Source: Lachnospiraceae bacterium Zagget2
Lineage (GTDB): Bacteria; Bacillota; Clostridia; Lachnospirales; Lachnospiraceae
NCBI GenBank assembly: GCA_001941045.1
Contig: MSHD01000035.1
Span: forward strand, 1 to 64,000
Direction of reading: 5' to 3'
Length of the DNA: 64,000 nt
The notes under the pieces are model-generated. The model did not search any database. It had not been told where the DNA came from and saw only the letters and a program-made list of their open reading frames with translations. Made by a program: the position numbers and the translations under genes. Shown piece by piece: positions 9,329 through 30,576 of this stretch. Within the stretch, counting starts at the first letter, position 1. The number at the start of each line of letters is the position of its first letter.

Positions 9329-9330
9329 TC

Positions 9331-10977: not shown

Positions 10978-10979
10978 GC

Positions 10980-12029: not shown

Positions 12030-12443
12030 TCACGCCTGAATTCCCACGATGGTCACAATCTGCCCGCGCGGGGTGTTGATATCCGCCTTCATGGCTGACT
12101 GCAGATTCAGTGCCACCGGAAAGCGCATACCACTCACATTGCCGGAAAGGTAACCCATATAGGTTCCGGCGCTTCCCAGGACCGGCCAGTAGGCCAGCGG
12201 TTCCGTCACCCAGACTCCGAAACAGAAAACGCAAAGTGCGACGATTACATTAATATAATCCGTAACAGGTGTCGTATAGCCCTTCACAATCAGAAAATAA
12301 GCAGTCGGAAGGAAAGAGAAAAACAGAGCCACCACCATGGTGATCCGTCCGATTCTGTGTACATTCGGCACAAATTCCGCCGTGTAAGCATCCTGCGCTT
12401 CGGCTTCTCTGCTTTCTGTGTTTGTCGTATTCATTTCACTCAT
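12030..12443 (-). CDS. Small membrane protein, partner of the DUF5058-like gene
   Basis: 137 aa with hydrophobic segments, adjacent to and co-directional with 12456-13157. Confidence 0.55.
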   Translation of the reverse strand: MSEMNTTNTESREAEAQDAYTAEFVPNVHRIGRITMVVALFFSFLPTAYFLIVKGYTTPVTDYINVIVALCVFCFGVWVTEPLAYWPVLGSAGTYMGYLSGNVSGMRFPVALNLQSAMKADINTPRGQIVTIVGIQA

Positions 12444-12455
12444 TCTTCTTTTCCT

Positions 12456-13157: not shown

Positions 13158-13179
13158 GAGTTCCTCCTATTCTATTCTC

Positions 13180-14391
13180 TTATCTTGTTGTCTGTTCATA
13201 TTCTTCGATCGCTCTCGCGATACGGTCGATGGCCTCAAGAATGACCGCCTTCGGGCTGGTGAGACAAAGACGGAGATAATGTTCTCCCTGCTCCGGATCA
13301 TGAGCAAGCCCGCCCTGAATCGCAACATTTGCGAGATGATTGACAATATACTGAAGCGTATCCGCCGGGTAACCATAGCCGGAGAAATCAACCCACAGAA
13401 TATAGGTGCCTTCCGGAACATATGCCGTCGCATTCGGCAGCTTTTTCTTCAGATAATCGACCGTTTCCCTTATGCTCTCGTCGAGATAAGCGTTCAGCGC
13501 ATCCAGCCAGTCTTCGCTCTCATTGTACGCAGCCGTCATGGCTGCAATCGAGAAGGGGGACGGCATTTCCGTCGCATAATCGGCGCAGAACCGCGCCCGG
13601 AGCTTATCATCCGGGATTACTGTGTAAGCGCACTGCAATCCCATCAGATTAAAGGATTTATTGACGCCGGAAACCATCACGAGATTGCTGCGGTCGGCAC
13701 ATGCGTCAATCACAGGGATGTGTTTCACCCAGGAGCGAACCAGATCCGAATGAATTTCATCTGAAGCGAGAATCACATGATTTTCACGGCAGATCTTCGC
13801 CATGCGCGCCAGCTCCTCTTTCGTCCAGACCCGTCCCACAGGGTTTTCCGGAGAGCAGAGCACATATACCTTGTTTTCCGGCTCGGCGCAGAGCTGTTCA
13901 AACTTCTCCCAGTCCATCCGGTAATCGCCTGGAGACGGCTGCAGCATCTGACAGTTCACAACCCGCCGTCCCAGCCTCTGAATCGTCGATGTGAAATTGC
14001 TGTAAACCGGGCGGCACAGAATGATACCGTCTCCCGGAGAAGAAAATGCCCGGATCGACTGCCCGATTCCGTCCAGCGCCCCGCTGCAGTGCACAATCCA
14101 CTCTCTCTTCAGCTCCACTCCGAACCTGCGCTGATACCATGAGATAATAGCCCCGCGATATTCATCGGAGGCTTCGTCCGTGGTATAGCCGAAGGTGCCG
14201 AAATCCGCCACGCGGTGAAGCGCCCGTGTGATCGCCGGAGCGCACTGGAAATCCATATCCGCGATCAACAGACGGATGCTGTCCTCATCAAGCCGCAAAT
14301 CCGGAACAAGCCTCCAGAAATACTTTCTGTCGTCATACTTCATGGAATAGGTCCCTCTGCGGTCCACAGACTGATCAAAGTTAAACTGCAC
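13180..14391 (-). CDS. MalY/PatB-type PLP aminotransferase (C-S lyase)
   Basis: CSPENPVGRVWTKEEL, SDEIHSDLV, SGVNKSFNLMGLQ. Confidence 0.9.
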   Translation of the reverse strand: MQFNFDQSVDRRGTYSMKYDDRKYFWRLVPDLRLDEDSIRLLIADMDFQCAPAITRALHRVADFGTFGYTTDEASDEYRGAIISWYQRRFGVELKREWIVHCSGALDGIGQSIRAFSSPGDGIILCRPVYSNFTSTIQRLGRRVVNCQMLQPSPGDYRMDWEKFEQLCAEPENKVYVLCSPENPVGRVWTKEELARMAKICRENHVILASDEIHSDLVRSWVKHIPVIDACADRSNLVMVSGVNKSFNLMGLQCAYTVIPDDKLRARFCADYATEMPSPFSIAAMTAAYNESEDWLDALNAYLDESIRETVDYLKKKLPNATAYVPEGTYILWVDFSGYGYPADTLQYIVNHLANVAIQGGLAHDPEQGEHYLRLCLTSPKAVILEAIDRIARAIEEYEQTTR

Positions 14392-14564
14392 AAATTCACT
14401 CCCTTTCTCCGCCTTCTAATGCAGGCTTTTTGTTTTAGCATCTAAAATATTTGTTCGAACAAAAGGCGCACTTTTTAGCACCTAAAATAATATTACTGAA
14501 AAGTATCACCTCTGTCAACAGAAATTATTGTTTTTTATCGATTTTGCCAAAAAACCTGCGGATT

Positions 14565-15053
14565 TTACTCACCTGTAAACCACCTGCACATGTACGACTC
14601 ATAATCGCGGATCATCTCCAACTGCTCTTCCGTAAATTGATGGAGATAGGTCTGATCCAGATTTTTGTATCGATCACAGTCATATTTCAGATGCTCCCAG
14701 TAAAAATCTTTTCCCTTCCCCGTAAGTGTGACGATCGTTTCCCTGCGGTTGGAAGGATTTTTTGAGCGGGTTATATATCCTTTTTTTTCAAGGCGAGCGG
14801 CAATCTGGGACACCGCACCATGGGACACCGCCAATGCCTCCGCGATCTCCGACATGGTCGCCCCGTCATCGGGCTTTACTGCGAGCATAAAGTGCGCTTC
14901 CCGCATGTAGATAAAATCATCCGTATTATAACCGCGACTTGCATTCATATACTGTGTGAATTCCTTGGTCGAGATGGCTTTCAATTCCAGAATTTCGCTG
15001 ATCAGACGTATACGCGGTTCAATATTATCAGGATAATACATAGAGACCTCCAT
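14565..15053 (-). CDS. MarR family transcriptional regulator
   Basis: wHTH MSEIAEALAVSHGAVSQIAARLEKKGYI. Confidence 0.9.
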   Translation of the reverse strand: MEVSMYYPDNIEPRIRLISEILELKAISTKEFTQYMNASRGYNTDDFIYMREAHFMLAVKPDDGATMSEIAEALAVSHGAVSQIAARLEKKGYITRSKNPSNRRETIVTLTGKGKDFYWEHLKYDCDRYKNLDQTYLHQFTEEQLEMIRDYESYMCRWFTGE

Positions 15054-15207
15054 TTACTGCTTTCTGACATTTATCATACGCGATTGATTTCGTAAAAGCA
15101 AGAATGCTTCTTGCATTATAGCAAAATTTATAATAATATGTTAGTATCTAAATCGTGAGTTACTTAAGCGCAAGAACATTCCCCGCATTGACAGGAGGAA
15201 AAAGAAA

Positions 15208-16416
15208 GTGAAATATGACTTTACTTCTATTATGAATCGCCGCGGCGAGGACGCGATTGCGGTAGACGCAGTCGGTATTGCCAGGAGTCCTGTTCCCGGC
15301 CCGAAAGATGGCTTTGATGCAATTCCCATGTGGGTGGCGGATATGAATTTCCCTGTATTTCCGGGGATTCAGGAAGCCATAGCGGGCAGGATTCAGAAGG
15401 CGCACTTTGGATACTTTCGTCCAAGGCAGGAATATCTGCAGGCGATTATCCGCTGGCAGGAGACGCGGAACGATGTAAATGGACTTAATGAGGAGCATCT
15501 TGGATATGAAAACGGCGTACTCGGCGGGGTGATCAGCGCGCTGAATACCCTCTGCTCCCGGGGAGACAATATTCTTCTTCACTCTCCCACCTACGTCGGT
15601 TTCATCAACAGCCTTACAAATAATGGCTATCACATGGTTCTCTCCCCGTTGGTGCTGGACGAGAACGGCGTCTGGCGCATGGACTATGAGGACATGGAGA
15701 AAAAAATTGTGGAGAATAACATTCACGCGACCGTGTTCTGCTCGCCGCACAATCCCTGCGGGCGTGTATGGGAAAAATGGGAACTGGAGAAAGCCTTTGC
15801 CTTGTTTGAAAAATATGATGTAAAAGTGGTTTCGGACGAAATCTGGTCGGATATCATCCTGAACGGCCACAGACACACGCCATCACAGAGCGTCAGCGAC
15901 TGGGCCAGGCAGAATACCGTCGCCCTGTATGCTCCGTCCAAGACCTTCAATCTGGCAGGGCTGGTGGGCTCCTATCATATTATTTACAACAAGACGCTGC
16001 GCGACCGTGTCGATAAAGAATCCTCGCTGTCGCATTATAATAACATGAACGTGCTGTCCATGTATGCGCTGATCGGCGCGTACTGTCAGGATGGCGGGCA
16101 ATGGGTCGATGAACTGCGCGAAACGCTCAGCGGCAATGTGAATTATGCTTATGACTACATCAAAACGCATTTCAGGGGTGTGGAGCTTGCCAGACCCGAG
16201 GGCACCTATATGCTGTTCCTGGACTGCAGTAAGTGGTGCGAGGAATATGGCAAAACGATCGACCAGCTGCAGCGCTCCGGCTTCGATGTCGGCGTCGTCT
16301 GGCAGGATGGGCGGAATTTCTATGGTCCCTGCCATATCCGTATGAACCTGGCGCTTCCGCTTACAAGGGTGCAGGAAGCCATGGAGCGCCTGGACAGGTA
16401 CGTGTTTAACGCATAG
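15208..16416 (+). CDS. Second MalY/PatB-type PLP aminotransferase
   Basis: MWVADMNFP, SPHNPCGRVWEKWEL, SDEIWSDIIL, APSKTFNLAGL. Confidence 0.9.
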   Translation: MKYDFTSIMNRRGEDAIAVDAVGIARSPVPGPKDGFDAIPMWVADMNFPVFPGIQEAIAGRIQKAHFGYFRPRQEYLQAIIRWQETRNDVNGLNEEHLGYENGVLGGVISALNTLCSRGDNILLHSPTYVGFINSLTNNGYHMVLSPLVLDENGVWRMDYEDMEKKIVENNIHATVFCSPHNPCGRVWEKWELEKAFALFEKYDVKVVSDEIWSDIILNGHRHTPSQSVSDWARQNTVALYAPSKTFNLAGLVGSYHIIYNKTLRDRVDKESSLSHYNNMNVLSMYALIGAYCQDGGQWVDELRETLSGNVNYAYDYIKTHFRGVELARPEGTYMLFLDCSKWCEEYGKTIDQLQRSGFDVGVVWQDGRNFYGPCHIRMNLALPLTRVQEAMERLDRYVFNA

Positions 16417-16444
16417 AAATACAAAAATTACAGGAGGAACGAAC

Positions 16445-17212
16445 ATGGAAGTAAATCAGATTGTTTTCAGCCCAACCGGAGGAACGCAAAAGGTCGCGGA
16501 TATTCTTACAGCGGAATGGAGCGAAACTGTTGACAGGATTGACCTGAGTGATCCCCGAACTGATGATACCGCCCTGCATTTTGAACAGGACGATCTCGCT
16601 GTTATCGCGGCTCCGTCTTTTGGCGGACGCGTGCCTGCTCTTGCGGCTGAACGGCTTGCGAAAATAAACGGTAACGGAGCCCGTTGCGTTGTCGTCTGCG
16701 TCTATGGAAACCGCGCGTATGAAGATACCCTGCTTGAACTGAGCGATCTTGCGGAACAGAGTAATTTCAGGGTTCTTGCCGCCATCTCCGCGGTTGCGGA
16801 GCATTCCATCATGCATCAGTACGCTGCTGGCCGACCGGATCAGCAGGACCAGAAGGAATTGCGCAGCTTTGCCGGAAAAATTCTGGAAAAATCGAAAAAC
16901 TGCGGCGCTGAAATACCCGCATTACAGATACCCGGCAATCGCCCCTATAAAAAGGGAGGCAGCATGGGACTGGTGCCAAAAGCAGACAGTAAATGTGTTG
17001 ACTGCGGTCTTTGCGCTGAAAAATGTCCGGCGCAGGCCATCAGCAGGGACAATATCAGAACCGCGGACAGTAAAAAGTGCATTTCCTGTATGAGATGCGT
17101 GGTTCAATGCCCACAGTCCGCCCGCAAATTGAATGCAGCGGTGGTTTCGGCTGCGGCGCTGGCGATGAAGAAGGTCTGTTCTGTAAGGAAAGAGAATGAA
17201 CTATTTATTTAA
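16445..17212 (+). CDS. EFR1-like flavodoxin/ferredoxin protein
   Basis: N-terminal flavodoxin-like FSPTGGTQKVAD; two 4Fe-4S motifs CVDCGLCAEKCP and CISCMRCVVQCP. Confidence 0.85.
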   Translation: MEVNQIVFSPTGGTQKVADILTAEWSETVDRIDLSDPRTDDTALHFEQDDLAVIAAPSFGGRVPALAAERLAKINGNGARCVVVCVYGNRAYEDTLLELSDLAEQSNFRVLAAISAVAEHSIMHQYAAGRPDQQDQKELRSFAGKILEKSKNCGAEIPALQIPGNRPYKKGGSMGLVPKADSKCVDCGLCAEKCPAQAISRDNIRTADSKKCISCMRCVVQCPQSARKLNAAVVSAAALAMKKVCSVRKENELFI

Positions 17213-17383
17213 AGACTGATCCGGTTTGTCTGCAAAAACCGTAAAGAGCTGCCTTCCGATGTCAGCCTTTACGGTTTCTCTTTCTTCCTCTGTATAGCCG
17301 GGACGGCGCTCGATCACCTCAAGCTGCATGTTCTGCTCGGAGATCGCCGCCCTCTTACTCTCATAAAATGGTCTGTCTTTCAT
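17201..17383 (-). CDS. 60 aa hypothetical protein (candidate element-borne small factor)
   Basis: ORF MKDRPFYESKRAAISEQNMQLEVIERRPGYTEEERETVKADIGRQLFTVFADKPDQSLNK. Confidence 0.5.
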   Translation of the reverse strand: MKDRPFYESKRAAISEQNMQLEVIERRPGYTEEERETVKADIGRQLFTVFADKPDQSLNK

Positions 17384-17434
17384 GTTTTATCTTATGAAAG
17401 ACGGCCTGTCCGTAATTCTCTCAGGATAGCTGCT

Positions 17435-17902
17435 TCATGACACTGGCAGTTCCATCTCGTCCTCCATTTTTACAAAGCCATATTTCTCATACAGGGGTCT
17501 GCCCATCTGTGTCGCCTCCAGGGAGATCGCGGTGATTCCCTGCTTTCTGGCATCCTGGACCAGCAGATCCAGCGTGTGCAGGGCGATACCTCTTCTGCGG
17601 TACGCGGGATCCGTATACATGTTCATGATATAGGCCTTCTTCCCGCTCGGATTGTGGTACGTCGGCATGACCTGAAAGAAGCTCACGCCGCCTGCTCCGA
17701 CCGGGCATTCTCCGTCGAAAACCAGATAAGCAATGTGGGAGCCGTCCTGCAGCGCTTCCTGATAATAATGATACGATTCCCTTGCCACCTCGCTCATATC
17801 AGCGTCATCGGACAGCCGGTTTGCTGCCCGCAATACCCGGATCCTGGTTTCCGTCAGCAGATCGAGGTCCTCTATTGTAGCTCTTTTATATATCAGGTTC
17901 AT
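17435..17902 (-). CDS. GNAT family N-acetyltransferase
   Basis: MNMYTDPAYRRRGIALHTLDLL acetyl-CoA binding motif. Confidence 0.88.
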   Translation of the reverse strand: MNLIYKRATIEDLDLLTETRIRVLRAANRLSDDADMSEVARESYHYYQEALQDGSHIAYLVFDGECPVGAGGVSFFQVMPTYHNPSGKKAYIMNMYTDPAYRRRGIALHTLDLLVQDARKQGITAISLEATQMGRPLYEKYGFVKMEDEMELPVS

Positions 17903-18137
17903 CCTGTGCGCTCCCGTCTTTTTTCTTTATTGAACCTATTGTACGCGATATCGGCGTGTGATTCAATTACTGAAAATGACATCCGTCTAAAACTCCGGAA
18001 CTTTTATTAAAAGCTATTGGAAACGCGAAGGTTTTGGCTTATAATGTTTTTCGGATCCGATCATGCCACAAATATATCATGTTTGTTTTCTGAAAAATAA
18101 ACTTTCGTTGTCAAATCATATAGGAAGGAGAGCAAGT

Positions 18138-18764
18138 ATGAACCAAAAGGAACGAATGCTGGCGGGACTGCCATACAAGGCCTGGCTGGACGGCCTGGAG
18201 GAGGAACGCGAACAGTGCAAGCAGAAAATCTACGAATTCAATATGCTGCCGCCTTCCGGGCGCGACCGCATCCCGGCGCTACTGAAGGATCTGTTCGGAA
18301 AAACCGGCGAAGAGCTCTGGATCGAGCCGCCGTTTCACTGCGACTATGGCTGGAATATCGAGGTGGGCGAAAACTTTTTCGCCAATTATAATCTGACAAT
18401 TCTGGACGTAGGCAAGGTCACGATCGGCAAAAATGCCCAGATCGCGCCGAACGTCTCTATCTATACGGCGGGACACCCGCTTCACCCTGATAGCCGCAAT
18501 TCCGGCTATGAATATGGCATTCCCGTCACCATCGGCGACAACGTCTGGATCGGCGGCGGAGCGATCATCCTGCCCGGCGTGACGATCGGCGACAATGTGG
18601 TGATCGGCGCGGGCAGCGTCGTCGGAAAGGACATTCCCGACAATATGCTCGCCGCCGGGAATCCCTGCCGGATTATCCGGGAGATCACGGAGGAATACCG
18701 GAAATATTATTTCAAACAGCGGGAATTTGATGAAGAATCCTGGGAGGAGATCTCCGGAGTCTGA
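18138..18764 (+). CDS. Maltose/galactoside O-acetyltransferase-like hexapeptide transferase
   Basis: RBS ggaaggag then MNQKERMLAGLPYKAW; hexapeptide repeats. Confidence 0.9.
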   Translation: MNQKERMLAGLPYKAWLDGLEEEREQCKQKIYEFNMLPPSGRDRIPALLKDLFGKTGEELWIEPPFHCDYGWNIEVGENFFANYNLTILDVGKVTIGKNAQIAPNVSIYTAGHPLHPDSRNSGYEYGIPVTIGDNVWIGGGAIILPGVTIGDNVVIGAGSVVGKDIPDNMLAAGNPCRIIREITEEYRKYYFKQREFDEESWEEISGV

Positions 18765-18771
18765 GAACTTT

Positions 18772-18794
18772 TACTTCCATCTTCCCGTTTCGCT
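18772..18794. repeat. Element 3 right att arm
   Basis: tacttccatcttcccgtttcgct, inverted relative to 9331-9353. Confidence 0.85.
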
Positions 18795-18911
18795 TCACCG
18801 AAGCGCTGGAAGTGCACGACCTCACGCGCCCGCAGGAAGCGCAGGGGATCGAGGACTTCCGGATCCTGAATGATGCGGATCAGATTGTCGTAGGTTGTGC
18901 GCGCTTTCTGC
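18795..18911 (-). CDS. cotJC: cotJC segment 3 of 4
   Basis: Minus strand encodes (E)QKARTTYDNLIRIIQDPEVLDPLRFLRAREVVHFQRFGE. Confidence 0.93.
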
Positions 18912-18913
18912 TC

Positions 18914-18935
18914 TGCTGCGATCGTGTAAAAACAA
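18914..18935. repeat. Element 2 left att arm
   Basis: tgctgcgatcgtgtaaaaacaa, inverted relative to 25353-25374. Confidence 0.85.
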
Positions 18936-18937
18936 AC

Positions 18938-20152
18938 TCAGTTCCACTCCTCTGCCAGCAGAAAATCACGAATATTAAAGTGCCTGATTCCGTCCCGGCT
19001 CATGTCCAGTTCATCCATCGTGACGACATATTTGGGAAAATTATCACGGATAGCAGCCAGGGCGCCAAACTCCCGCCGAACCGTCTCCTCCGAAGCAAGC
19101 AGATAGGAAACCTGGACATACAGCTTTCTGCTCTGATATTCACATACGAAATCGACCTCTCTGCCGGACAGTTTTCCGATGGTGACAGAATAGCCACGGC
19201 GCAGCAGCTCCATAAAAACAATATTTTCCAGGACCAGCTGAATGTCTTTCGTATTGCCGCCAAACACGGCCTCCCGGATACCATGATCGGCAACATAGTA
19301 TTTTTTGTTGACGGTCAGTATCTTTTTGCCCTGCAGATCCTGCCGTTTCACCCGGTAAAACAAAAAGGCGTCCGTACAGGCTTTGATATAGTTGAGTACT
19401 GTTTCCGTCGACACCGGGCGTCCTTCGTTTTTCAAGTATCTGGAAATAGCTGTAGCGGAAAACGTGGTACCGACATTGGCAGTAAGATAAGCAATAATTC
19501 GTTCCAGCATATCCACATCCCGGATATTATTTCTCCTGACGACATCCTTCAGCTCGACAGAGTTGAACAGATCGCGCAGATACTGGCGGCTGGCCACATC
19601 GTCATAACGAAGGTTGGCAAGATAGGGCATTCCGCCCAGCGTCAGATACTTTGTGAAGCACTGTCTGTCGTCTGCGTCCGGAAAAACGCTGTGATACAGC
19701 TCCCGAAACTCCCCAAATGAGAACGGATAGATCACAAATTCTACATAACGCCCGGCAAGGTAAGTAGCCAGCTCTCCGGAGAGCAGTCTGGCATTGGAAC
19801 CGGTAATATAAATGTCACAATCCAATTCTACGCGAAAAGAATTGATACACTTTTCCCAGTCTGTCACTTCCTGTATTTCATCAAAAAACAAATAAACCTT
19901 GCCGCCGATTTTCTCCGCCTGATGAATAATCTCCTCATGCAGGGCAGAAGCGCTGCAAAGCTGTGCGTTGCTCATATTCTCAAAATTCAGGGAAATGAAC
20001 TGCCCCGGATCAATACCGTTCTCGATCAGCTCCTCCTGAATGAGCTGCAGCATGACGGACTTACCGCTACGGCGGATACCGGTCAGAACCTTGATCAGCT
20101 CATTCCCGATAAAAGGCCGGATACGGCTCATATAGGCTTCCCGTTTTATCAT
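18938..20152 (-). CDS. AAA ATPase of the DUF4143 type
   Basis: LTGIRRSGKSVMLQLI Walker A, LFFDEIQEV Walker B, C-terminal VDFVCEYQSRKLYVQV. Confidence 0.88.
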   Translation of the reverse strand: MIKREAYMSRIRPFIGNELIKVLTGIRRSGKSVMLQLIQEELIENGIDPGQFISLNFENMSNAQLCSASALHEEIIHQAEKIGGKVYLFFDEIQEVTDWEKCINSFRVELDCDIYITGSNARLLSGELATYLAGRYVEFVIYPFSFGEFRELYHSVFPDADDRQCFTKYLTLGGMPYLANLRYDDVASRQYLRDLFNSVELKDVVRRNNIRDVDMLERIIAYLTANVGTTFSATAISRYLKNEGRPVSTETVLNYIKACTDAFLFYRVKRQDLQGKKILTVNKKYYVADHGIREAVFGGNTKDIQLVLENIVFMELLRRGYSVTIGKLSGREVDFVCEYQSRKLYVQVSYLLASEETVRREFGALAAIRDNFPKYVVTMDELDMSRDGIRHFNIRDFLLAEEWN

Positions 20153-20321
20153 AAAGGACCTCTCCCTTCCAGGATTTCCAATATATTTTATCACTATTAT
20201 ATCTGATTTTCAACGCAAAAATCATTTTTTATAAGTTACAACTGATAAAACTACGTTTTTGACATAATTCGGCAGGTACATCGTTGTAACTATATCATGG
20301 GGCGAATGGAAGAAGATTCGT

Positions 20322-21125
20322 TTAACAAAAGTAGTTAAGGTAGATCATGGCAGCACCCAGGAGCGTCAGAATCACGCCCGTGACCCTGCCCACGGTCTTG
20401 TTGTTCACACGGTTTGCGAACTGGGCGGAGACATGAGACGTCGCCGTCGCGGTGACGATGCAGATGATCAGCACGGGCCAGCGTTCCAGCACGATGGCCG
20501 GGTGAATCAGCGAATGACTGATAAAACCGATCAGGGCGGTGAAGGTCATAATGAAGGTGCTGGTGCCCACCGCAGTTTTCAGATCATAGCCCAGGAACGC
20601 CGTAAAGACGACCAGCATCATCATACCGCCGCCGGTCCCCACGAATCCTGTGCCGAAGCCAATCGTCAGGCCGAAAAACAGAGATATGAGAATCTCCTTC
20701 CAGCCCAGCCGCACATGGGAGGCGTCCGCTCCCTCCTTCGAGGTGTCCGGTTTAAGCAGAAAACGAATGCCGATGCAGAAGGTCAGGATCAGGGTGAAGC
20801 CGCCCAGCACCACATTTCCCACCAGATAGGCGGCATAGCTGCCGACCGCGCTGAGTCCGATGATGCAGACCAGCATGACCCAGCCATGCTTTAAATCAAT
20901 TCGCTTATTTTTCGCGTAGACGGAGGTCGTCACAGCCGAGCCCAGGATGTCCGACGCCAGCGCGATGGCCGTCGCCTGATACGCGCCGTACTCGCCGCCA
21001 AAGGAGGGGCAGAGCACGATCAGAATCGGGACCATCACTGTCGCCGCGGACAGACCGGCCAGGCCGGTGCCGACGCCAGCGCCCAACGCCGCAATAATAT
21101 ACCAGAAATATTCCATAACTATCAC
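20322..21125 (-). CDS. TSUP family transporter (TauE/SafE-like)
   Basis: Polytopic; GFGTGFVGTGGGMMMLVVF and VGTSTFIMTFTALIGF motifs. Confidence 0.85.
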   Translation of the reverse strand: MIVMEYFWYIIAALGAGVGTGLAGLSAATVMVPILIVLCPSFGGEYGAYQATAIALASDILGSAVTTSVYAKNKRIDLKHGWVMLVCIIGLSAVGSYAAYLVGNVVLGGFTLILTFCIGIRFLLKPDTSKEGADASHVRLGWKEILISLFFGLTIGFGTGFVGTGGGMMMLVVFTAFLGYDLKTAVGTSTFIMTFTALIGFISHSLIHPAIVLERWPVLIICIVTATATSHVSAQFANRVNNKTVGRVTGVILTLLGAAMIYLNYFC

Positions 21126-21127
21126 CT

Positions 21128-21571
21128 CTACTCAGGCCATTGAAAGCAATACTTTCCTTTTCCGTAGCCAGACACCGGTCTGGTAACGCCGGTTTCTGCC
21201 ATCTGACGCAGCAGGGCCGAGCTTCTTGTCTCCTTCAATCCAAGCACACGCTGAACATCTGACCTGCCAAAGATCGTCTGAAAGCCGAATGCCTCGAACA
21301 GTTTCTGAACATGAGCCGCGGTCTTCGGCGTAAGTCGCCCTTCTATGTTCACTTTTTCCACTGTGTAGAAAGTTCCGCTGATGTGCAGGCTCCGGTTATG
21401 AAGCGGATGTTTCTCATTCAGCAGAAGATTGCGCAGAAATCGCTCCAGATACTCCGATGTTGTCAAGCCATCGACTGCCTGCAGGCCGATGGCCGTGTGC
21501 CACGCGTAACCCTTATCCCGTTTGTCCGGCTCGGACTCTCTCATATATTCCTGAAACGGATCCTGCTTCAC
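21128..21571 (-). CDS. Fic-protein-associated fragment or small wHTH protein
   Basis: YMRESEPDKRDKGYAWHTAIGLQAVDGLTTSEYL resembles the N-terminus of Fic-family proteins; the FIC motif is absent. Confidence 0.5.
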   Translation of the reverse strand: MKQDPFQEYMRESEPDKRDKGYAWHTAIGLQAVDGLTTSEYLERFLRNLLLNEKHPLHNRSLHISGTFYTVEKVNIEGRLTPKTAAHVQKLFEAFGFQTIFGRSDVQRVLGLKETRSSALLRQMAETGVTRPVSGYGKGKYCFQWPE

Positions 21572-21669
21572 TTTTTTGTCACCTCGCTGCCCCTCTCCTG
21601 TATTTTACCCCAGAACAGAAGAGAAAGAAAGGGATTCTTTCATCTGGGGAAATCGATTGGATAACGCTG

Positions 21670-22744
21670 TCAAATACAAAATGCAGCGTAAAGCGGCACC
21701 GTCTTTTTGTCGTCTTCAAATCCAAAGTTTTTCGAGGAGAGCTTGATCGCGTATGCGGGCTGATAGCGCTTCAGGCTCTTTGCCCTGGTATTGTCAGCCG
21801 ACTTCACTTCGATGGGAATGAGCTGACCGTCGCGCTGAATAATAAAATCGATCTCGACGCCGCGCTCGGACACCCAGTAAAAAGTCCGGTAGCCGTTGAT
21901 GGACAGTTGTACATTGACATAGTTTTCCGCCATGCCACCCTTAAAATCGTTTATCTCGTCCACCATGTAGAGAACATCATTCGCCGCCAGGTCTTTCTTT
22001 GCACAGAGCAGCCCCATATCCGACACATAAATTTTAATAGCGTCAATATCGCGGTAATTTTCCAGCGGCTTTTTGATCTGCTCCGCCTTAAATACACGCG
22101 ATACAATACCCGACAGGCAGAGCCATTCAATCGCGTTTTCAAATTCGGACGCCCGCGCCCCCTTTTTGATCAGTTTGTATTGAAAACGGGTGTTTTTTCT
22201 GGAAAGCTGGACGGTAATGCTGTCATAGGCAAGCCGGATTTTCTTAATCTCATTCAGATTGTTGTACTTGCTCATATCATTCAGATAACTGGCGAGTATC
22301 GTGTCCTGTGTATGGCGAAGCAGGATGTAATCCTTCGTATCCACAAACTGCAGGACACATTCGGGCATGCCTCCCACGACCAGATATTGACGGTAAAGCT
22401 GCATGGCCGCATCGTGCAGCGCCGCAGGCAACGGCGTATTCTTCTCAAAGCAGCTCCGGATCTGCTCCACCAGCTTCCCTTCTCCACAGGCCAGAAGGAA
22501 CTCCTCCATATCCATCGGGTAGAGAGTCTTCATATCCACCTTGCCGACCGGAAACGAGAATTTTGCCCTGTTTACGGCAACGCCGAGCAGGCTGCCCGCC
22601 ACAATCACATGATAGTCCGGCGCGTCCGAACTCCAGAATGGACCATGTCTTGCCCACCTGCCTTGCTCCCTGCAGAATCAGGGGCTCGTTATAAATCAGT
22701 ATAATGGACCAGCCCAGGCACATAACATATACCGACATTTCCAA
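21670..22744 (-). pseudogene. Degraded DUF4143-type AAA ATPase
   Basis: Walker-A part (PLILQGARQVGKTW) and C-terminal part (VAGSLLGVAVNR...GVEIDFIIQRDGQLIPIEVK) lie in different frames with intervening domain missing. Confidence 0.7.
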
Positions 22745-22759
22745 AAAGGAGCCACGCCG

Positions 22760-22891
22760 GTGTCAGAAAAACCCGCCACCACCATCTGCAAAAGCGTTTT
22801 CAAAGGCGGCGAAAACGCCATTTCCAGAGAGGACTTCACCAGAATATGGATTGAAATCATCAGCCGTCTGGAAAGGACAAAGCATTCATGA
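22760..22891 (+). CDS. 43 aa ORF translationally coupled to the element 2 recombinase
   Basis: aaaaaggag RBS, GTG start, SEKPATTICKSVFKGGENAISREDFTRIWIEIISRLERTKHS; stop overlaps recombinase ATG (ATGA). Confidence 0.65.
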   Translation: MSEKPATTICKSVFKGGENAISREDFTRIWIEIISRLERTKHS

Positions 22892-24441
22892 AGGCAGCGA
22901 TTTACTGCCGCCTGTCCGAGGAGGACCGCGACAAGCGCCATGAGGGCGACGACTCCGCCAGCATCCAGAATCAGAAGTCCATGCTGCTGCAATACGCCAT
23001 GGAGCAGGGATGGGAGGTTTTCCAGATTTACAGCGACGACGACTATGCCGGCTCCGACCGACGGCGACCCGGATTTCAGCGCCTGTTGCACGACGCCGAG
23101 CAGCGCAGATTCGACGTCGTGCTCTGCAAGACGCAGTCCCGCTTTACCCGCGAGCTGGAACTCGTGGAGAAATACATTCACGGACTCTTTCCCCTCTGGG
23201 GCATCCGCTTTGTCAGTATCGTCGACAACGCGGACACCGCCAACAGGGGAAACAAGAAGTCTCGGCAGATCAACGGCCTCGTCAACGAATGGTATCTGGA
23301 GGATATGTCGGAAAATATCCGCAGCGTCCTGACGAACCGTCGGCAGAACGGTTTCCACATCGGCGCCTTCGCCCTCTACGGCTATCGCAAGGACCCGGAA
23401 CACAAGGGACACCTTCTCATCGACGAGGAGGCCGCCACCGTCGTCCGCGAGGTGTTCACGCTTTACTCCAAGGGCTGCGGCAAGACCGCCATCGCCCGCC
23501 TGCTCAACGAGCGAGGCGTCCCGAATCCGACGGAATACAAGCGTCTGTGCGGCCTGCGCTACCGGCAGCCAAAGAGCCGCAGCGGCACACTCTGGAAATA
23601 CAGCGCCATCTCCTCCATGCTGGTCAACGAAATCTATATCGGCAACATGGTACAGGGAAAATACGGCAGTCTTTCCTATAAGACACGGCAAAACAGGCCC
23701 CGTCCAAGAGAGGAATGGATCATCGTCGAGGGGACGCACGAACCAATCATCGAGCGGGAACTGTGGGATCGCGTGCAGAGCCTGATAAAACAAAAGGCGA
23801 AGCCCTTTGCGGGCGGCAGCATCGGTCTGTTCGCAGGGAAAGCCCGCTGCATGAACTGCGGCTATACTCTGCGCTCCACCGCCAGCCAGGGCAGACACTA
23901 TCTGCAGTGTCCGAACCGTCACCTTGCAAAGGACGCCTGCGCCGGCGCTTTTATTTCCATTGACAGACTGGAGCGGCTTGTCAGGGAGGAGCTGAACCGC
24001 CTGACCATGAAATATCTGGACCTCGCAGTGCTGGAACAGGAAGTCACCTTTTGTGATGATTTGCAGGAGCAAAAGAGCCGTCTTCTCTCCGACCTGGCTC
24101 TCTGGGAAAAGAGAAAGGCCGAATACGGCAAAGCTATCCGCGAGCTCTATCTCGACAAGGTCCGGGGGCTCCTCTCCGAAAGCGATTATCTGGAAATGTC
24201 CGAAGATTTCAACACCTCCCGCGAGCGCTTTGCACACCGGATCGCGGACGGGAAAAGAAAGTTGTCAGAAATGGAGGAGTTCCGCGAAACAGACGGGACC
24301 CGCCGCGAACGAATCGAGCAATCCCTGCACCCGCAGCGCCTGAGCCGCGAGTTCGTCGACACACTGATCGACCACATCTTTGTCGGTAAAAGGATTCCGG
24401 GCAGCCGCGACGTCCCCGTCGAAATCCACTGGAATTTTTAA
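22888..24441 (+). CDS. Large serine recombinase of element 2
   Basis: 517 aa: MKAAIYCRLSEEDRDK, YSDDDYAGSDRRRPGFQRLL, zinc-ribbon CMNCGYTL, coiled coil. Confidence 0.95.
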   Translation: MKAAIYCRLSEEDRDKRHEGDDSASIQNQKSMLLQYAMEQGWEVFQIYSDDDYAGSDRRRPGFQRLLHDAEQRRFDVVLCKTQSRFTRELELVEKYIHGLFPLWGIRFVSIVDNADTANRGNKKSRQINGLVNEWYLEDMSENIRSVLTNRRQNGFHIGAFALYGYRKDPEHKGHLLIDEEAATVVREVFTLYSKGCGKTAIARLLNERGVPNPTEYKRLCGLRYRQPKSRSGTLWKYSAISSMLVNEIYIGNMVQGKYGSLSYKTRQNRPRPREEWIIVEGTHEPIIERELWDRVQSLIKQKAKPFAGGSIGLFAGKARCMNCGYTLRSTASQGRHYLQCPNRHLAKDACAGAFISIDRLERLVREELNRLTMKYLDLAVLEQEVTFCDDLQEQKSRLLSDLALWEKRKAEYGKAIRELYLDKVRGLLSESDYLEMSEDFNTSRERFAHRIADGKRKLSEMEEFRETDGTRRERIEQSLHPQRLSREFVDTLIDHIFVGKRIPGSRDVPVEIHWNF

Positions 24442-24504
24442 AAGTTGCCCTCGTGAGGAAAACGGGCTACAATAACGAAAGAGCTTACAAGGGAGGTTTG
24501 ACTG

Positions 24505-25350
24505 ATGCTGTCATTCGAAAACGACTATATCTGTGGCGCACACGAACGGATTCTGCAGCGCCTTATGGAGACAAACCGGGAGCCGCTGACCGGCTACGGA
24601 AACGATCCTTATTGCGAGAGCGCAAAGGAAAAGATTCGCGCGGCCCTGAACTGCCCGGAGGCGGACATTTACTTTCTCTCGGGCGGCACGCAGACCAACG
24701 CGACGGTCATCGACGCGCTGCTGGACAAGTATGAGGGCGTCGTCGCCGCCGATACCGGACATATCAGCACCCACGAGGCGGGCGCGATCGAAGCTGCCGG
24801 CCATAAGGTGCTCACGCTTCCGCAGCACGAGGGCCGGATTGCAGCGGCGGAGCTTCAGGCGCTGCTCGAAAACTTCTATCAGGATGAAAATCACGAGCAC
24901 ATGGTATTTCCCGGTATGGTCTACCTCTCTCACCCCACTGAGTACGGGACTTTGTATACGCGTGCGGAGCTGGAGGAGCTTTCCGCCATCTGCCGCGCAC
25001 ACAATATTCCGCTCTATCTGGACGGCGCGCTGCTGGCAAAGGGACGGCTGCTGGGCGTCCAGTTCGACACGCTCTTCACGGACGGGCTGTATTTTCAGAT
25101 CAGCCGCCACGCGATCGACATGGCGGAGCTCCTGAAAAAAGGACTGCTCGAGAAGGGATACACCTTCTACCTGGAGTCCCCGACCAACCAGCAGTTTCTT
25201 CTCCTTCGCGACGAGGAGGTCGAGCGCCTGAAAAAGCAGGTCGCTTTCAGCTTCTGGGAGAAGCCGGACGCGGAACACACAATCGTACGCTTCGCCACGA
25301 GCTGGTCCACCACGGAAGAGGACATTGCTCAGCTGATGCAGATCCTGTAA
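24505..25350 (+). CDS. L-threonine aldolase-like PLP enzyme with internal deletion
   Basis: 281 aa; NxxYGNDPYCESAKEKI, FLSGGTQTNATV, LYLDGA; expected GGTKxG lysine region missing. Confidence 0.8.
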   Translation: MLSFENDYICGAHERILQRLMETNREPLTGYGNDPYCESAKEKIRAALNCPEADIYFLSGGTQTNATVIDALLDKYEGVVAADTGHISTHEAGAIEAAGHKVLTLPQHEGRIAAAELQALLENFYQDENHEHMVFPGMVYLSHPTEYGTLYTRAELEELSAICRAHNIPLYLDGALLAKGRLLGVQFDTLFTDGLYFQISRHAIDMAELLKKGLLEKGYTFYLESPTNQQFLLLRDEEVERLKKQVAFSFWEKPDAEHTIVRFATSWSTTEEDIAQLMQIL

Positions 25351-25352
25351 AG

Positions 25353-25374
25353 TTGCTCTTACAAAATCGCAGCA
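25353..25374. repeat. Element 2 right att arm
   Basis: ttgctcttacaaaatcgcagca. Confidence 0.85.
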
Positions 25375-25689
25375 TCTGCTGCAAGGTCCTCATTGAGATC
25401 GGTAATCGCGTCGCCGGTAGACTGAAACTCGTTCGCCGTCCACGGCACGCCGCCTGCCGACTGCGGCCAGAGCCCGCCGGTGTGGTCCACATAGTAGGCC
25501 GGAAGGCCGGATTCCCTGAGCTGCTCCATCGACATGTTCTTCGTGAGCTGATAGATGATGGCCCAGACGATCTCGAGGTGGGCTAACTCTTCCGTGCCGA
25601 TATCTGTCAGCACAGCCGCGCACTCCTTATAAGGCATCGTGTACCTCTGTGAGAGGTAGCGCATGCTCGCACCCAGCTCTCCATCGGGA
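25375..25689 (-). CDS. cotJC: cotJC segment 2 of 4
   Basis: Encodes PDGELGASMRYLSQRYTMPYKECAAVLTDIGTEELAHLEIVWAIIYQLTKNMSMEQLRESGLPAYYVDHTGGLWPQSAGGVPWTANEFQSTGDAITDLNEDLAA. Confidence 0.95.
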
Positions 25690-25691
25690 CC

Positions 25692-25713
25692 TCCGAATCG
25701 CGGCAGGTTATAC
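25692..25713. repeat. Element 1 left att arm
   Basis: tccgaatcgcggcaggttatac; inverted match to 29989-30010 with one mismatch. Confidence 0.92.
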
Positions 25714-25869
25714 ACTGCCACCCATTTTCTTCCTCTGTCTTTCCAGTTCCTTCTGCATCCGTCGTAGCAAGACTTTCTTCTCTCGCTCTGTGAGACTCTC
25801 CCAGCGTCTCTCGCCCTGCTCCGTGGCAATGTGCGAAGGAAGCGCCGTCAGTTCCCTCGATCTTCCCAT
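25708..25869 (-). CDS. 53 aa basic protein, candidate recombination directionality factor
   Basis: GGAGAGAGT-ATG; MGRSRELTALPSHIATEQGERRWESLTEREKKVLLRRMQKELERQRKKMGGSV*; divergent from the recombinase; stop lies inside the att arm. Confidence 0.5.
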   Translation of the reverse strand: MGRSRELTALPSHIATEQGERRWESLTEREKKVLLRRMQKELERQRKKMGGSV

Positions 25870-25924
25870 ACTCTCTCCGTTTTTTTACAGTATATGCCGC
25901 CGTTTCCCCGCATAGATTGGTAAT

Positions 25925-27085
25925 ATGAAAACCGCAGCCGCCTACATCCGCGTCTCCACCGAGGAGCAGCTCGAATTTTCCCCGGATAGCCAGTTAAAGC
26001 GCATCGAAGAATACGCACGCACACACGACATGTGCCTGCCGGACGAATACATCTATCTGGACGAGGGTTTCAGCGGCAGGAAGGCGCAGAACCGTCCCGC
26101 CTTCCTGCGCATGATCGCCGAGGCGAAGCGAAAGCCCCGCCCCTTTGACGTGATCCTGCTCTGGAAATTCTCCCGCTTCGCGCGGAACCGCCAGGACAGC
26201 ATCCTCTACAAATCCATGCTGCGCCGGGAGTGTGGCATCGACGTGCTTTCCATCACAGAGCAGCTCTCCGGCGATCCGACCTCCATCCTGATCGAAGCGC
26301 TGCTCGAGGCCATGGACGAGTACTACTCCATCAACCTCGCGGAGGAAGTACGCCGCGGCATGAATGAAAAGTTTTCACGGGGCGGCGTCGTCTCCATTCC
26401 GCCCTTCGGCTACCGCATGGAAAATGGGCATTTCAGTCCGGATCCGACGCGGGCGCCTTTTGTCTCCATGATCTATGAGGATTTTCTGCGGGGAAGCTCC
26501 TGCCGCGCGATCGCGCGGAAACTGAATGAAAGGAACATACAGACCACACGCGGGAATCCTTTTGAAGCCCGCGCTGTCCGCTATATTTTAGGCAACCCGG
26601 TCTACACCGGAAAGCTGCGCCGAAGCATGCAGGGCGAGATGACGCTCGTGCCTGGCTGCCACGAGCCATTGATTTCAGAAAGCCTTTTTCAAAGTGTGCA
26701 GAAAAAGCTGGAAGGATCCGACAGCACTCACATGCCAAAACCCGCGCCCTCCGCCTTTCTGTTCCAGGGGCTCGTGCGCTGCGGCTGCTGCGGCGGTTCG
26801 CTCACCAGAAGCTCCCGGGACGGTGCGCTACAGTGCTGCCGCTATGCAAAGGGAACCTGCCCGCAGAGCCACTATCTCTCCATACAAAAGCTGGAAACAG
26901 TCACACTTCACACCATAAAACGAGACCTTGCCGACACGGGCGGAGCTTTCGCGCTCCTCTATGCCTCCACTCCCGAAATCCGGAAGAAAAATGAACTGCT
27001 CCGAAGCATCATCGAAAAGATCGTGTTTCGGAGCAGCAGCAAGGATATCTGTATCTGTTACCGCGCCCTCTTTCGCACGAGATAG
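25925..27085 (+). CDS. Serine recombinase of element 1
   Basis: 386 aa: MKTAAAYIRVSTEEQLEFSPDSQ, LLWKFSRFARNRQD, recombinase domain, CGCCGGSL zinc-ribbon. Confidence 0.95.
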   Translation: MKTAAAYIRVSTEEQLEFSPDSQLKRIEEYARTHDMCLPDEYIYLDEGFSGRKAQNRPAFLRMIAEAKRKPRPFDVILLWKFSRFARNRQDSILYKSMLRRECGIDVLSITEQLSGDPTSILIEALLEAMDEYYSINLAEEVRRGMNEKFSRGGVVSIPPFGYRMENGHFSPDPTRAPFVSMIYEDFLRGSSCRAIARKLNERNIQTTRGNPFEARAVRYILGNPVYTGKLRRSMQGEMTLVPGCHEPLISESLFQSVQKKLEGSDSTHMPKPAPSAFLFQGLVRCGCCGGSLTRSSRDGALQCCRYAKGTCPQSHYLSIQKLETVTLHTIKRDLADTGGAFALLYASTPEIRKKNELLRSIIEKIVFRSSSKDICICYRALFRTR

Positions 27086-28503
27086 ACGGCCGGGATCAGC
27101 ATTGGGAAGATCTCAAGTCTGCCCGCCAGCATATCAAAGCAGAACACCAGCTTCGACAAGTTGGAAAATGCAGCGAAGTTCTGCGTCGCGCCGACGCCGT
27201 TCAGGCCGGGGCCGATGTTGTTGATCGTCGCGGCCACAGCGGTGAAGTTCGTGATCCCGTCAAAATTATCGAGCGAGATGATCAGCAGTGAAGTCACAAA
27301 AATAACGATGTAGGTGATCAGGAAAACGTTGATGGAACGCAGTACCTCGTGTTCCACTGTCTTCCCTTCAAAGCGGATCTTCCGCACATTGCGCGGATGA
27401 ATGATGAAATCCAGCTCCTTCAGCACCGTTTTCGCCATAATCTTGACACGCATCACCTTGATGCCGCCGCCGGTGCTGCCTGCGCAGGCTCCGATGAACA
27501 TCAGCAGCACCAGAATCGTCCGCGACAGCTCCGGCCACTGGTCAAAATCCGCGGTCGTGAAGCCCGTCGTCGTGATGATCGAGGCCACCTGGAAGGCCGC
27601 ATGGCGCAGGGTCACTCCCACATTCTGATAGATATGGTAAATATTGACCACGATCGCGAGGACGCTCACGCCGATAATCCCGAGGTAGGTCCGCAGCTCC
27701 TCACTGTGCAGGCCGTCTTTGAACTTCTTCATATAGAAAAGGAAGTAGACATTGAAATTCACGCCGAACAGGATCATGAAAACAGTGAGAATCCACTGTG
27801 TCACTGCGTTATAGTCCGCCGCGCTGCTGTTCAGCACGCCGAAACCTCCGGTTCCCGCCGTGGCAAAGGCCAGGTTGATCGAGTCAAAAACCGGGCAGCC
27901 GGAGACAAGCAGACAGACCATCTCGACCACAGTCAGAAACATATAGATCAGATACAGAAGCTTCGCCGAACCGCGCACCTTCGGCACCAGCTTGCCGACG
28001 GACGGTCCGGGACTCTCCGCCTTCATCAGATACATGCTGGACGCACCCGTCGAGGGCAATACCGCCAGCACGAAGACGAGAATTCCCATGCCACCGATCC
28101 AGTGCGAAAAGCTTCTCCACATCAGTACCGCGCGCGGAGCTGACTCTACATCCGCCATGACCGTGGAACCAGTCGTCGTGAAGCCGGAGATGATCTCAAA
28201 GAGCGCATCCACCGGATTGGGGAAGGAACCGCTGAGGTAAAGCGCCAGCGCGCCAAAGAAGCTCATGACGATCCAGCACAGTGCCACGCTCGTGTAACCT
28301 TCCACAGAGAAAATCGTCGTGTTCTCCGGCTTTTTCCGTCCCCGCATCAGCCATCCACATACAATACAGATCAGGGATGTCGCCAGAAAAGCCCACAGGC
28401 ATTTTTCCCGGTAGATCAGAGCGGTCAGCGCCGGAAGCAGCAAAAACAAAGCCTCCAGCAGCACCACACTTCCGATGATATAGCGTACCATTTTCCTGTT
28501 CAT
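27058..28503 (-). CDS. trkH: TrkH family potassium uptake protein
   Basis: SGFTTTGSTVM, SHWIGGMGILVFVLAVLP, GACAGSTGGGIKVMR. Confidence 0.93.
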   Translation of the reverse strand: MNRKMVRYIIGSVVLLEALFLLLPALTALIYREKCLWAFLATSLICIVCGWLMRGRKKPENTTIFSVEGYTSVALCWIVMSFFGALALYLSGSFPNPVDALFEIISGFTTTGSTVMADVESAPRAVLMWRSFSHWIGGMGILVFVLAVLPSTGASSMYLMKAESPGPSVGKLVPKVRGSAKLLYLIYMFLTVVEMVCLLVSGCPVFDSINLAFATAGTGGFGVLNSSAADYNAVTQWILTVFMILFGVNFNVYFLFYMKKFKDGLHSEELRTYLGIIGVSVLAIVVNIYHIYQNVGVTLRHAAFQVASIITTTGFTTADFDQWPELSRTILVLLMFIGACAGSTGGGIKVMRVKIMAKTVLKELDFIIHPRNVRKIRFEGKTVEHEVLRSINVFLITYIVIFVTSLLIISLDNFDGITNFTAVAATINNIGPGLNGVGATQNFAAFSNLSKLVFCFDMLAGRLEIFPMLIPAVYLVRKRAR

Positions 28504-28518
28504 CGCTGCTCTCCCGCC

Positions 28519-29895
28519 TTATCCCGCTGCCCGCGTTTTTTTCAGAATATCCCGCAGATCTTTCAGATCGCCGCTGCTTGTCGTGATAATGACGACGGAA
28601 TCACCGACCCGCAGACAGTCCTGCCCTTTGGGAATAATGGTCTTTCTCTTTCGATAGATTGCGCAGACCAGCAGATCGTCCCTCAGCTTCAACTCCTGCA
28701 GCGGAACATCCGTCAGCTCACTTTGCTTGTGAATAATGAATTCCAGTGCCTCCGCCTTTCCATCGACAAGACGGTACAGTGACTGCACATTGCTGTCAAT
28801 TGAGTTCTGCATCGCACGTACATACTGAATGATCGTCTCAGCCGTGATGTTCTTCGGGTAAATCATGCTTCCAATATCAAGAGAGCCAATGATCGCGTTG
28901 TAAGTATCCTGGTCGACCTTGGTAATGATCTTCGCCTTGCTCATATGCTTGGCATAGAGAGACATCATGACGTTCTCCTCGTCCTGATTGGTCAGCGCCG
29001 CAAAGCCTTCCACCCGCGCCAGCCCCTCTTCCGCGAGAAGCGTCTCATCACGTCCGTCCCCGTAAATAATTGTTGCCTTCGGCAGCAAATCACTCAGAAG
29101 CTCACAGCTCGCGCGATCCTTCTCTACAATTTTCACCTGAATACCCATCTCGATCAGGCGCCTTGCCAGATAGAAGGCAACCTTGCCCCCGCCGATCAAC
29201 ATCGTATTTTTTACCTGATTTGTCTCGATGCCGATCATACGGAAAAACCGGCTTGCATTCGCAGGCGAGGCTACGATGGAAATCGTATCACCCTCCTGAA
29301 GTTCCATATCGCCGTCCGGGATCAGGGTCTGTCCCTGTCGTTCTACGATGCAGATCAGCACCTCACAGCGGGAGAGCTCCTCCAGATCCTTGATCTTCTT
29401 CGCACAGAGCGGATTGCCCGGCTGTAAGTGAAAACGCAGCAGCTCGATCCGTCCATTGGCAAAGGTATCAATGTTAATCGCAGACGGGAACCGAAACAGC
29501 CTCGAAATCTCCATCGCCGCCGCCCACTCCGGGTTAATGACCATCGAAAGTCCCAGATCTTCCTTGAAATGGTGGATTTCCTGGTGATAGACCGGATTGC
29601 GCACGCGCGCAATTGTCTGACAGCCGCCCGATTTCTTTGCAATCAGACAGCAGAGCAGATTCACCTCATCCGCATTCGTCACTGCGATCAGCAGATCTGC
29701 CTTGTCGACGCCCGCTTCCATCTGGATATTCAGACTCGCGGCATTCCCGATCACGCCTCTGGCATCCGCAGCATAGACCACGCGCTGCACTGCCTCCGAA
29801 TTCTGATCGATCACCGTCACGTCATGTTCATCTTTGCAGAGCTGCTCTGCCAGCACCTGCCCGACCTGTCCGCATCCCGCGATAATAATATTCAT
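28519..29895 (-). CDS. trkA: Trk potassium transporter NAD-binding subunit
   Basis: MNIIIAGCGQVGQVLAEQL; duplicated RCK-N/RCK-C organisation. Confidence 0.93.
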   Translation of the reverse strand: MNIIIAGCGQVGQVLAEQLCKDEHDVTVIDQNSEAVQRVVYAADARGVIGNAASLNIQMEAGVDKADLLIAVTNADEVNLLCCLIAKKSGGCQTIARVRNPVYHQEIHHFKEDLGLSMVINPEWAAAMEISRLFRFPSAINIDTFANGRIELLRFHLQPGNPLCAKKIKDLEELSRCEVLICIVERQGQTLIPDGDMELQEGDTISIVASPANASRFFRMIGIETNQVKNTMLIGGGKVAFYLARRLIEMGIQVKIVEKDRASCELLSDLLPKATIIYGDGRDETLLAEEGLARVEGFAALTNQDEENVMMSLYAKHMSKAKIITKVDQDTYNAIIGSLDIGSMIYPKNITAETIIQYVRAMQNSIDSNVQSLYRLVDGKAEALEFIIHKQSELTDVPLQELKLRDDLLVCAIYRKRKTIIPKGQDCLRVGDSVVIITTSSGDLKDLRDILKKTRAAG

Positions 29896-29988
29896 CCTTC
29901 GCCTCCAGCTCTCCCTTTTTCTAAACTGATATTTTAACTATAGCACCGCCACCCAAAAACTGCAATCCTGAAAAAGCGGGGATTCTCT

Positions 29989-30010
29989 GTATAACCTGCC
30001 GCGATCCGGA
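29989..30010. repeat. Element 1 right att arm
   Basis: gtataacctgccgcgatccgga. Confidence 0.92.
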
Positions 30011-30102
30011 CCTCCGAACTGGGAGATGATCAGTTTTGCCATCTCCGGATTGGGATTGGTAATGTTTACGGGATACTCCAGTCTCTTCTCATAATTCCAC
30101 AT
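30011..30102 (-). CDS. cotJC: cotJC segment 1 of 4 (N-terminus)
   Basis: ATG at 30102 beside cotJB stop; MWNYEKRLEYPVNITNPNPEMAKLIISQFGG; unexcised frame ends after 54 codons at 29938. Confidence 0.95.
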
Positions 30103-30375
30103 TCAGCAGACGCCTCCTTCCCAGGGCCAGGGCTGGCTTACCCAGTCCCATTTCCCATCCATACCGGTCGTGCAGTCGATGTTCAGCGGCCCGTAGAGCG
30201 CCGCATAGTCCTTCAGCGCCTGCTCACGGAGCATTTTATTCTCCTCAAAGTAAGCCATTGCCGCGGGATCCTCCGGGTGTGTGTCGAGATACAGGTTCGA
30301 CTCCACAACCGCGAAGCTGACCATATCCACCCAGTCCAGCATTTGTTTCCTGCTCGGTTTACTGTTCTGCGCCAT
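30103..30375 (-). CDS. cotJB: Spore coat protein CotJB
   Basis: MLDWVDMVSFAVVESNLYLDTHPEDPAAMAYFEENKMLREQALKDYAALYGPLNID. Confidence 0.93.
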   Translation of the reverse strand: MAQNSKPSRKQMLDWVDMVSFAVVESNLYLDTHPEDPAAMAYFEENKMLREQALKDYAALYGPLNIDCTTGMDGKWDWVSQPWPWEGGVC

Positions 30376-30576
30376 CTACCTGCACCCTCCTCTCACGCCG
30401 AGAAACGGCTTATAAAGCTCCGGAAAAATTGTACCGCGGGACAGCCCCTTCTCCAGATCATAAACGGTGTGCCAGTGCTGCCAGGGCACATAGTCCATGG
30501 CGAGCGGATACTCATCCAGACCCATACGCATGGCCATGCCACCGCGATTCGCGGGACATCTCTTAAATTGTTCCAT
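30376..30576 (-). CDS. cotJA: Spore coat associated protein CotJA
   Basis: LAMDYVPWQHWHTVYDLEKGLSRGTIFPELYKPFLG. Confidence 0.92.
   Translation of the reverse strand: MEQFKRCPANRGGMAMRMGLDEYPLAMDYVPWQHWHTVYDLEKGLSRGTIFPELYKPFLGVRGGCR

Follow-up and report, generated by a model that had tools for sequence, protein, structure and literature searches.

The spore-coat gene cotJC in the stretch of DNA analysed here (the window: 64,000 nucleotides (nt), positions 1 to 64,000 of contig MSHD01000035.1 from the gut bacterium Lachnospiraceae bacterium Zagget2) is interrupted by an element with its own serine recombinase, element 1. This raises the question of whether the gene is dead or is put together again when a spore is made. 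We propose, with a probability of about 0.8, that element 1 is a domesticated element of the skin/gin type, which is excised from cotJC in the mother cell during sporulation. In that case, it would probably be cut out at each spore formation.

Attachment sites of element 1

The recombination-related features of element 1 are the following:

25687..30007, no strand: element 1, 4,321 base pairs (bp), in cotJC at codon 31; predicted crossover GG at 25690-25691 and 30011-30012
25687..25713, minus strand: putative attachment (att) site at the exon-2 end; core TTCGGAGGTCC (25687-25697) and element arm GTATAACCTGCCGCGATTCGGA to 25713
29989..30018, minus strand: putative att site at the exon-1 end; core (30008-30018) and element arm TCCGGATCGCGGCAGGTTATAC
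25925..27085, plus strand: serine recombinase of element 1, 386 amino acids (aa); Resolvase, Recombinase and zinc-ribbon domains, coiled coil deleted
25708..25869, minus strand: candidate recombination directionality factor (RDF), 53 aa (MGRSRELTALPSHIATEQGERRWESLTEREKKVLLRRMQKELERQRKKMGGSV); phrog_26314 family, stop codon in the att arm
25889..25896, minus strand: CATATACT, a mother-cell-type −10-like box, 27 nt before the RDF-candidate start

The two copies of GGACCTCCGAA, which reads TTCGGAGGTCC in the cotJ sense, form an exact 11-bp direct repeat at 25687-25697 and 30008-30018, just as an initial annotation of the window had placed it. The circle junction rebuilt from the ends of element 1 is GTATAACCTGCCGCGATTCGGA-GG-TCCGGATCGCGGCAGGTTATAC, an inverted repeat with one mismatch and GG at its centre. 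The mismatch and the centre agree with the initial annotation, while the arms measure 23 bp and not the 22 bp given there. Counted over the first arm positions, 22 of 24 are complementary around this centre, compared with 10 for the next best centre nearby and 6.3 ± 2.2 for unrelated DNA under the same counting. The layout is of the attP type, with an inverted repeat around a non-palindromic GG dinucleotide that is common to attB. Removal of element 1 joins its flanks in frame (...LIISQFGGPDGELG...) and leaves an open cotJC frame reading ...IISQFGGPDGELG...; the in-frame rejoining foreseen in the initial annotation holds for this joint. However, the frame then ends at a stop inside a second element, element 2; the loss of element 1 alone does not restore cotJC, because two further elements cut the gene.

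The same site was found throughout the family of the recombinase. Eighty relatives were fetched, and at 73 of the 80 loci the stretch examined contains a cotJC piece broken at the position of element 1 (site A); no cotJC piece was present in the stretch examined at the other seven, several of which are short or near a contig edge. Both flanks were available for 28 loci, and in 27 of these (one tie) the rebuilt junction has its best palindrome centre at the codon-31 GG, with arm sequences that vary between lineages despite this constant centre. One congener (G013) possesses an uninterrupted cotJC, aligned without gaps across site A and across site C, which is used by element 2, and a single-contig genome carries a site-A element of 86.7 kb with the same GG centre. 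In addition, the complete circular phage PQ006094 encodes an integrase 53% identical to the element 1 recombinase, as well as a homologue of the 53-aa protein, and contains near its integrase gene an inverted repeat around GGGAGGTAC with 12-bp arms, half a base off centre. The product of 25925-27085 itself shows PF00239, PF07508 and PF13408 in that order, all above cut-off. Combined, these observations support the proposal that the ends of element 1 are serine recombinase att sites with a central GG crossover dinucleotide, and that the corresponding attB lies in cotJC. The domains and the site layout also fit the large serine integrase that had been suggested, apart from the deleted coiled coil. 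Within the phage, the integrase, the small protein and the att-like inverted repeat stand side by side (L229, PQ006094.1, 22836-24558).

Selection on exons and element genes

Up to six congeners share element 1 with the same gene order. Among the species sharing the split, the ratio of nonsynonymous to synonymous substitution rates (dN/dS), for which short exons and simple counting give rough single values of uniform direction, was 0.03-0.12 for cotJC exon 2 (four species; dS 0.13-0.46), 0.13-0.19 for the recombinase and 0.14-0.32 for the 53-aa RDF candidate, and exon 1 showed no amino-acid change at all (dN = 0 at dS of up to 1.8). This points to purifying selection on the exons, the recombinase and the RDF candidate across species sharing the insertion. 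Such selection on the exons is unlike that on a dead gene, and it forms the main argument that excision restores cotJC. The dS values of the recombinase, trkH (a gene carried within element 1) and exon 2 are within the range of the neighbouring cotJB (roughly 0.15-0.7), those of trkA, also inside the element, being higher in some pairs. Therefore, element 1 seems to have been mostly inherited together with cotJC.

Four pieces of cotJC and their relation to the metal site

The cotJC gene of the window consists of four pieces, separated by three elements and spanning 9,232-30,102:

30008..30102, minus strand: cotJC exon 1 (codons 1-30 and the shared core)
25375..25697, minus strand: cotJC exon 2, between sites A and C
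18912..25374, no strand: element 2, 6,463 bp, site C; 8-bp core TCTGCTGC at 18912-18919 and 25375-25382, predicted crossover GA in the Glu136 codon
22888..24441, plus strand: serine recombinase of element 2
18792..18919, minus strand: cotJC exon 3, between sites C and D
9326..18791, no strand: element 3, 9,466 bp, site D; predicted crossover GA in the Glu175 codon
9354..10877, minus strand: serine recombinase of element 3
9232..9330, minus strand: cotJC exon 4 (C-terminal tail and stop)

With their ends joined, elements 2 and 3 each give an inverted repeat (18 of 24 positions) centred on GA. The four pieces joined encode a protein of 206 aa, and the genome contains no other cotJC. The cargo of elements 2 and 3 comprises peptidase, aminotransferase, acetyltransferase, ATPase-like and threonine-aldolase-like open reading frames (ORFs).

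The joined CotJC could be aligned to structurally characterised Mn catalases, including 1jku (the query had a differing tail, its first 178 residues being identical to the final 206-aa version). The metal ligands of 1jku-type Mn catalases, which we take to be E35, E66, H69, E148 and H181, are matched in this alignment by E35, E65, H68, E136 and H169 of CotJC. The element 1 crossover in codon 31 is located four codons before E35, that of element 2 lies within the codon of E136 (the E148-type motif), and site D, in codon 175, follows H169 (the H181-type motif) by six codons. Site B, used in relatives, falls in the codon of E65, as read from one resolvable locus. The insertion sites lie where this Mn-catalase-like protein has its Mn-ligand motifs.

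Spread of split cotJC genes

Among 120 surveyed Lachnospiraceae genomes, each from a different genus, 76 have cotJC, and about 30 of these 76 carry a split copy, as counted from coordinates, with breaks at sites A, B, C and D. Split copies also occur in Ruminococcus-type relatives, and cotJC would be among the most frequently interrupted bacterial genes. Next to the site-C breaks of G094, G148, G028 and G127 stand recombinases with 70-73% identity to that of element 2; near the site-D breaks of G068, G152 and G162, the recombinases share 53-66% identity with that of element 3.

In L043 and other loci, cotJC is broken at aa 64-69 (site B, Glu65 codon), a site used by another recombinase family. 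The cotJC pieces of G008 and G016 imply breaks at A, B and C, and in G016 at D as well. Prophage-sized insertions (36-87 kb) occupy site A or B in G163:C1, G083:C2, G082:C1, G071:C7 and G030:C41, which suggests that phages still use the cotJC sites. The same recombinase was also seen on a Spirochaetes-binned contig (L082), which is probably misbinned; it contains an ORF that R. flavefaciens (L071) has in identical form.

Loss of the coiled coil and the candidate directionality factor

Compared with its relatives, the element 1 recombinase lacks about 85 internal residues, and with them the coiled-coil motif inside the zinc-ribbon domain. The motif is likewise deleted in the recombinases of L041/L042/L045, L044, L040 and L079, which belong to small elements of several clades, and is kept in most other relatives and in the PQ006094 integrase. 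It has been reported that the coiled coil enforces one-way recombination in relatives of this recombinase, and that its alteration abolishes activity in phiC31 (PMC10754689, PMC5814800). The natural deletion suggests that the recombinase is no longer selected for integration, and such proteins offer natural tests of the current model of one-way serine recombination.

The 53-aa ORF is divergent from the recombinase gene. Of 81 loci, 34 contain a homologue, and many phage contigs carrying this integrase have one as well; almost all of them lie on the other strand from the recombinase gene. A Pfam search with the 53-aa protein returned no significant family. The best PHROG was phrog_26314, of unknown function, for all four members tested, with a weak match for the window protein (E = 0.07) and E-values of 3e-8 to 3e-7 for three relatives. 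From its co-occurrence with the recombinase and the selection acting on it, we propose the 53-aa protein as a candidate RDF, which would provide a testable identity for this phage family. The protein is short in the clade of the window and in L079, and was not found in L223 and L224.

Among 35 deduplicated regions upstream of RDF candidates, 20 contain the mother-cell-type box CATAnnnT (4.1 expected), and in 16 of these it lies 25-34 nt ahead of the start. As a positive control, the regions upstream of cotJA contained it in 29 of 43 cases (6.9 expected). The housekeeping box TATAAT showed no enrichment. The sporulation gene searched for in the genome, spoIVA, is present.

Proposed programmed excision and its alternatives

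Excision in the mother cell would proceed as follows. The sporulating mother cell would express the element 1 recombinase together with the small RDF candidate, and the recombinase would cut both ends of the element at the codon-31 GG and rejoin the exons, releasing a circle with the recombinase, trkA and trkH. Elements 2 and 3 would leave by means of their own recombinases, which would rebuild the 206-aa CotJC, a Mn-catalase-like spore coat protein. As the mother cell dies, the spore chromosome would keep the elements. The site architecture, the restorable frame, the family-wide site, the empty site in a congener, the selection on both halves, the promoter boxes and the loss of the coiled coil can be read directly from the sequence. 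From these we infer that excision occurs, that it is specific to the mother cell and that the 53-aa protein acts as the directionality factor.

Several observations weigh against this proposal. The source genome is a draft, and a search of viral contigs did not turn up the element 1 circle junction. CATAnnnT is a short consensus, and recombinase genes too have it upstream more often than expected (34 of 105 cases, 12 expected). This enrichment before the recombinases as well could mean that control acts on both genes. The RDF candidate is shorter in the window than in most relatives, and none was found in the L041/L042/L045 clade, so that excision may not require it. Moreover, C. difficile mutants of two cotJC homologues are cited in PMC11222575 as having no marked coat defect, and cotJC may be dispensable.

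A possibly mild effect of cotJC loss (PMC11222575) would also suit ordinary integration, in which integrases use a conserved cotJC coding motif as attB, the gene is dead in its carriers, and excision is rare and serves mobility. Conserved active-site motifs make good attB sites, and phage-sized elements with the same target do exist. Nevertheless, we regard ordinary integration as unlikely, since species sharing the insertion have intact exons that evolve under strong purifying selection, the recombinase is still under selection although it lacks the coiled coil, and mother-cell-type boxes precede the RDF candidates. Furthermore, element 1 carries no phage genes: no structural, packaging or replication gene was found in it, its content being the recombinase, the small ORF, trkH and trkA. 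The internal deletion of about 85 residues could instead have made the recombinase bidirectional, so that element 1 flips in growing cells as a phase-variable on/off switch for cotJC and for the position of the trk genes. This is very improbable, because an excised circle lacking a replicon would disappear together with its trk genes, switching a spore-coat gene has no apparent benefit in growing cells, and neither circle nor joined form was seen (the circle junction was searched in viral contigs). An artefact of assembly or binning might be suspected to have brought unrelated DNA together at cotJC in a window from a 66-contig draft with an estimated contamination of 3.35%. However, the same arrangement is present in several congeners and dozens of independent assemblies, including a single-contig genome, with base-exact sites, and the artefact is for practical purposes refuted.

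Mother-cell excision of element 1 may be part of a wider pattern, towards which we lean slightly. Accordingly worded for the group as a whole, the cotJC of gut Clostridia would be an intron-like mosaic gene, in which each serine-recombinase family targets one metal-ligand motif, and some lineages would have made of them excision devices of the mother cell only, with recombinases that lost the coiled coil and host housekeeping genes as cargo. If true, several excisions in one short gene must succeed for every spore, and cotJC would represent a ready system for studying how phage integrases become developmental switches.

Comparison with known excision systems

Excision from a sporulation gene has been shown experimentally for gin in gerE (PMC5595907), skin in C. 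difficile (PMC5025042) and SPbeta in spsM (PMC4191935). Element 1 appears to share the working principle of these systems, but its target gene, the number of sites, the host cargo and the missing coiled coil set it apart.

The gin element of Bacillus cereus ATCC10987 is, like element 1, a non-phage element within a sporulation gene, with a serine recombinase and exact in-frame rejoining. Both have a short core inside an imperfect inverted repeat (9 bp in gin, 11 bp in element 1). The tiny directionality factor of gin, GirX, has 42 aa, and the similarly small candidate of element 1 has 53 aa. They differ in size and content: gin spans 28.6 kb in gerE and has three recombinases, whereas element 1 spans 4.3 kb in cotJC and has one (PMC5595907). 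Unlike gin, element 1 carries host trk cargo, has a recombinase without the coiled coil and shares its gene with two more elements. Excision of gin was demonstrated by experiment, while that of element 1 is deduced from sequence.

The skin element in sigK (B. subtilis; skinCd of C. difficile with CD1231 and its RDF CD1234) also cuts a sporulation gene that is restored by a serine recombinase, and the skinCd RDF is made only in the mother cell (PMC5025042), as would be the case for element 1. However, skin is prophage-like and resides in a regulator gene, whereas the gene around element 1 encodes a structural enzyme and has up to four sites. Precise excision of SPbeta from B. subtilis spsM rebuilds a late spore-envelope gene (PMC4191935), as proposed here; SPbeta is a full active prophage, whereas element 1 contains no phage genes, though relatives occur in phages. 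The only published neighbourhood of a prophage and a cotJC-type gene that we found is that of phi027 in C. difficile R20291, which adjoins the CotJC-like gene CDR20291_1465. The prophage is not described in PMC11222575 as reconstituting this gene. No description of an element inside cotJC was found in the open-licence literature, where absence is no proof.

So far, only a few bacterial sporulation genes are known to undergo programmed DNA excision, in most cases with one element each, compared with up to four sites in cotJC.

Cargo and neighbouring genes

The remaining genes inside and beside element 1 are the following:

27058..28503, minus strand: trkH, cargo, host-type potassium transporter gene
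28519..29895, minus strand: trkA, cargo
30103..30375, minus strand: cotJB, directly upstream of cotJC exon 1
30376..30576, minus strand: cotJA, upstream of cotJB

A second TrkH-family gene is present elsewhere in the genome, and no trk genes were found near cotJC in other genera within the flanks examined. In the congener with the intact site (G013, L222), trkA-trkH-adhE lie directly downstream of the uninterrupted cotJC, and in the split congeners element 1 encloses trkA and trkH, in some of them together with adhE. This arrangement weakens the notion that the trk genes are foreign cargo; therefore, the cargo is best regarded as a host block. Its presence would make permanent loss of element 1 costly. 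In comparison with G013, the elements of L223, L224 and L225 have the recombinase at opposite ends in different clades.
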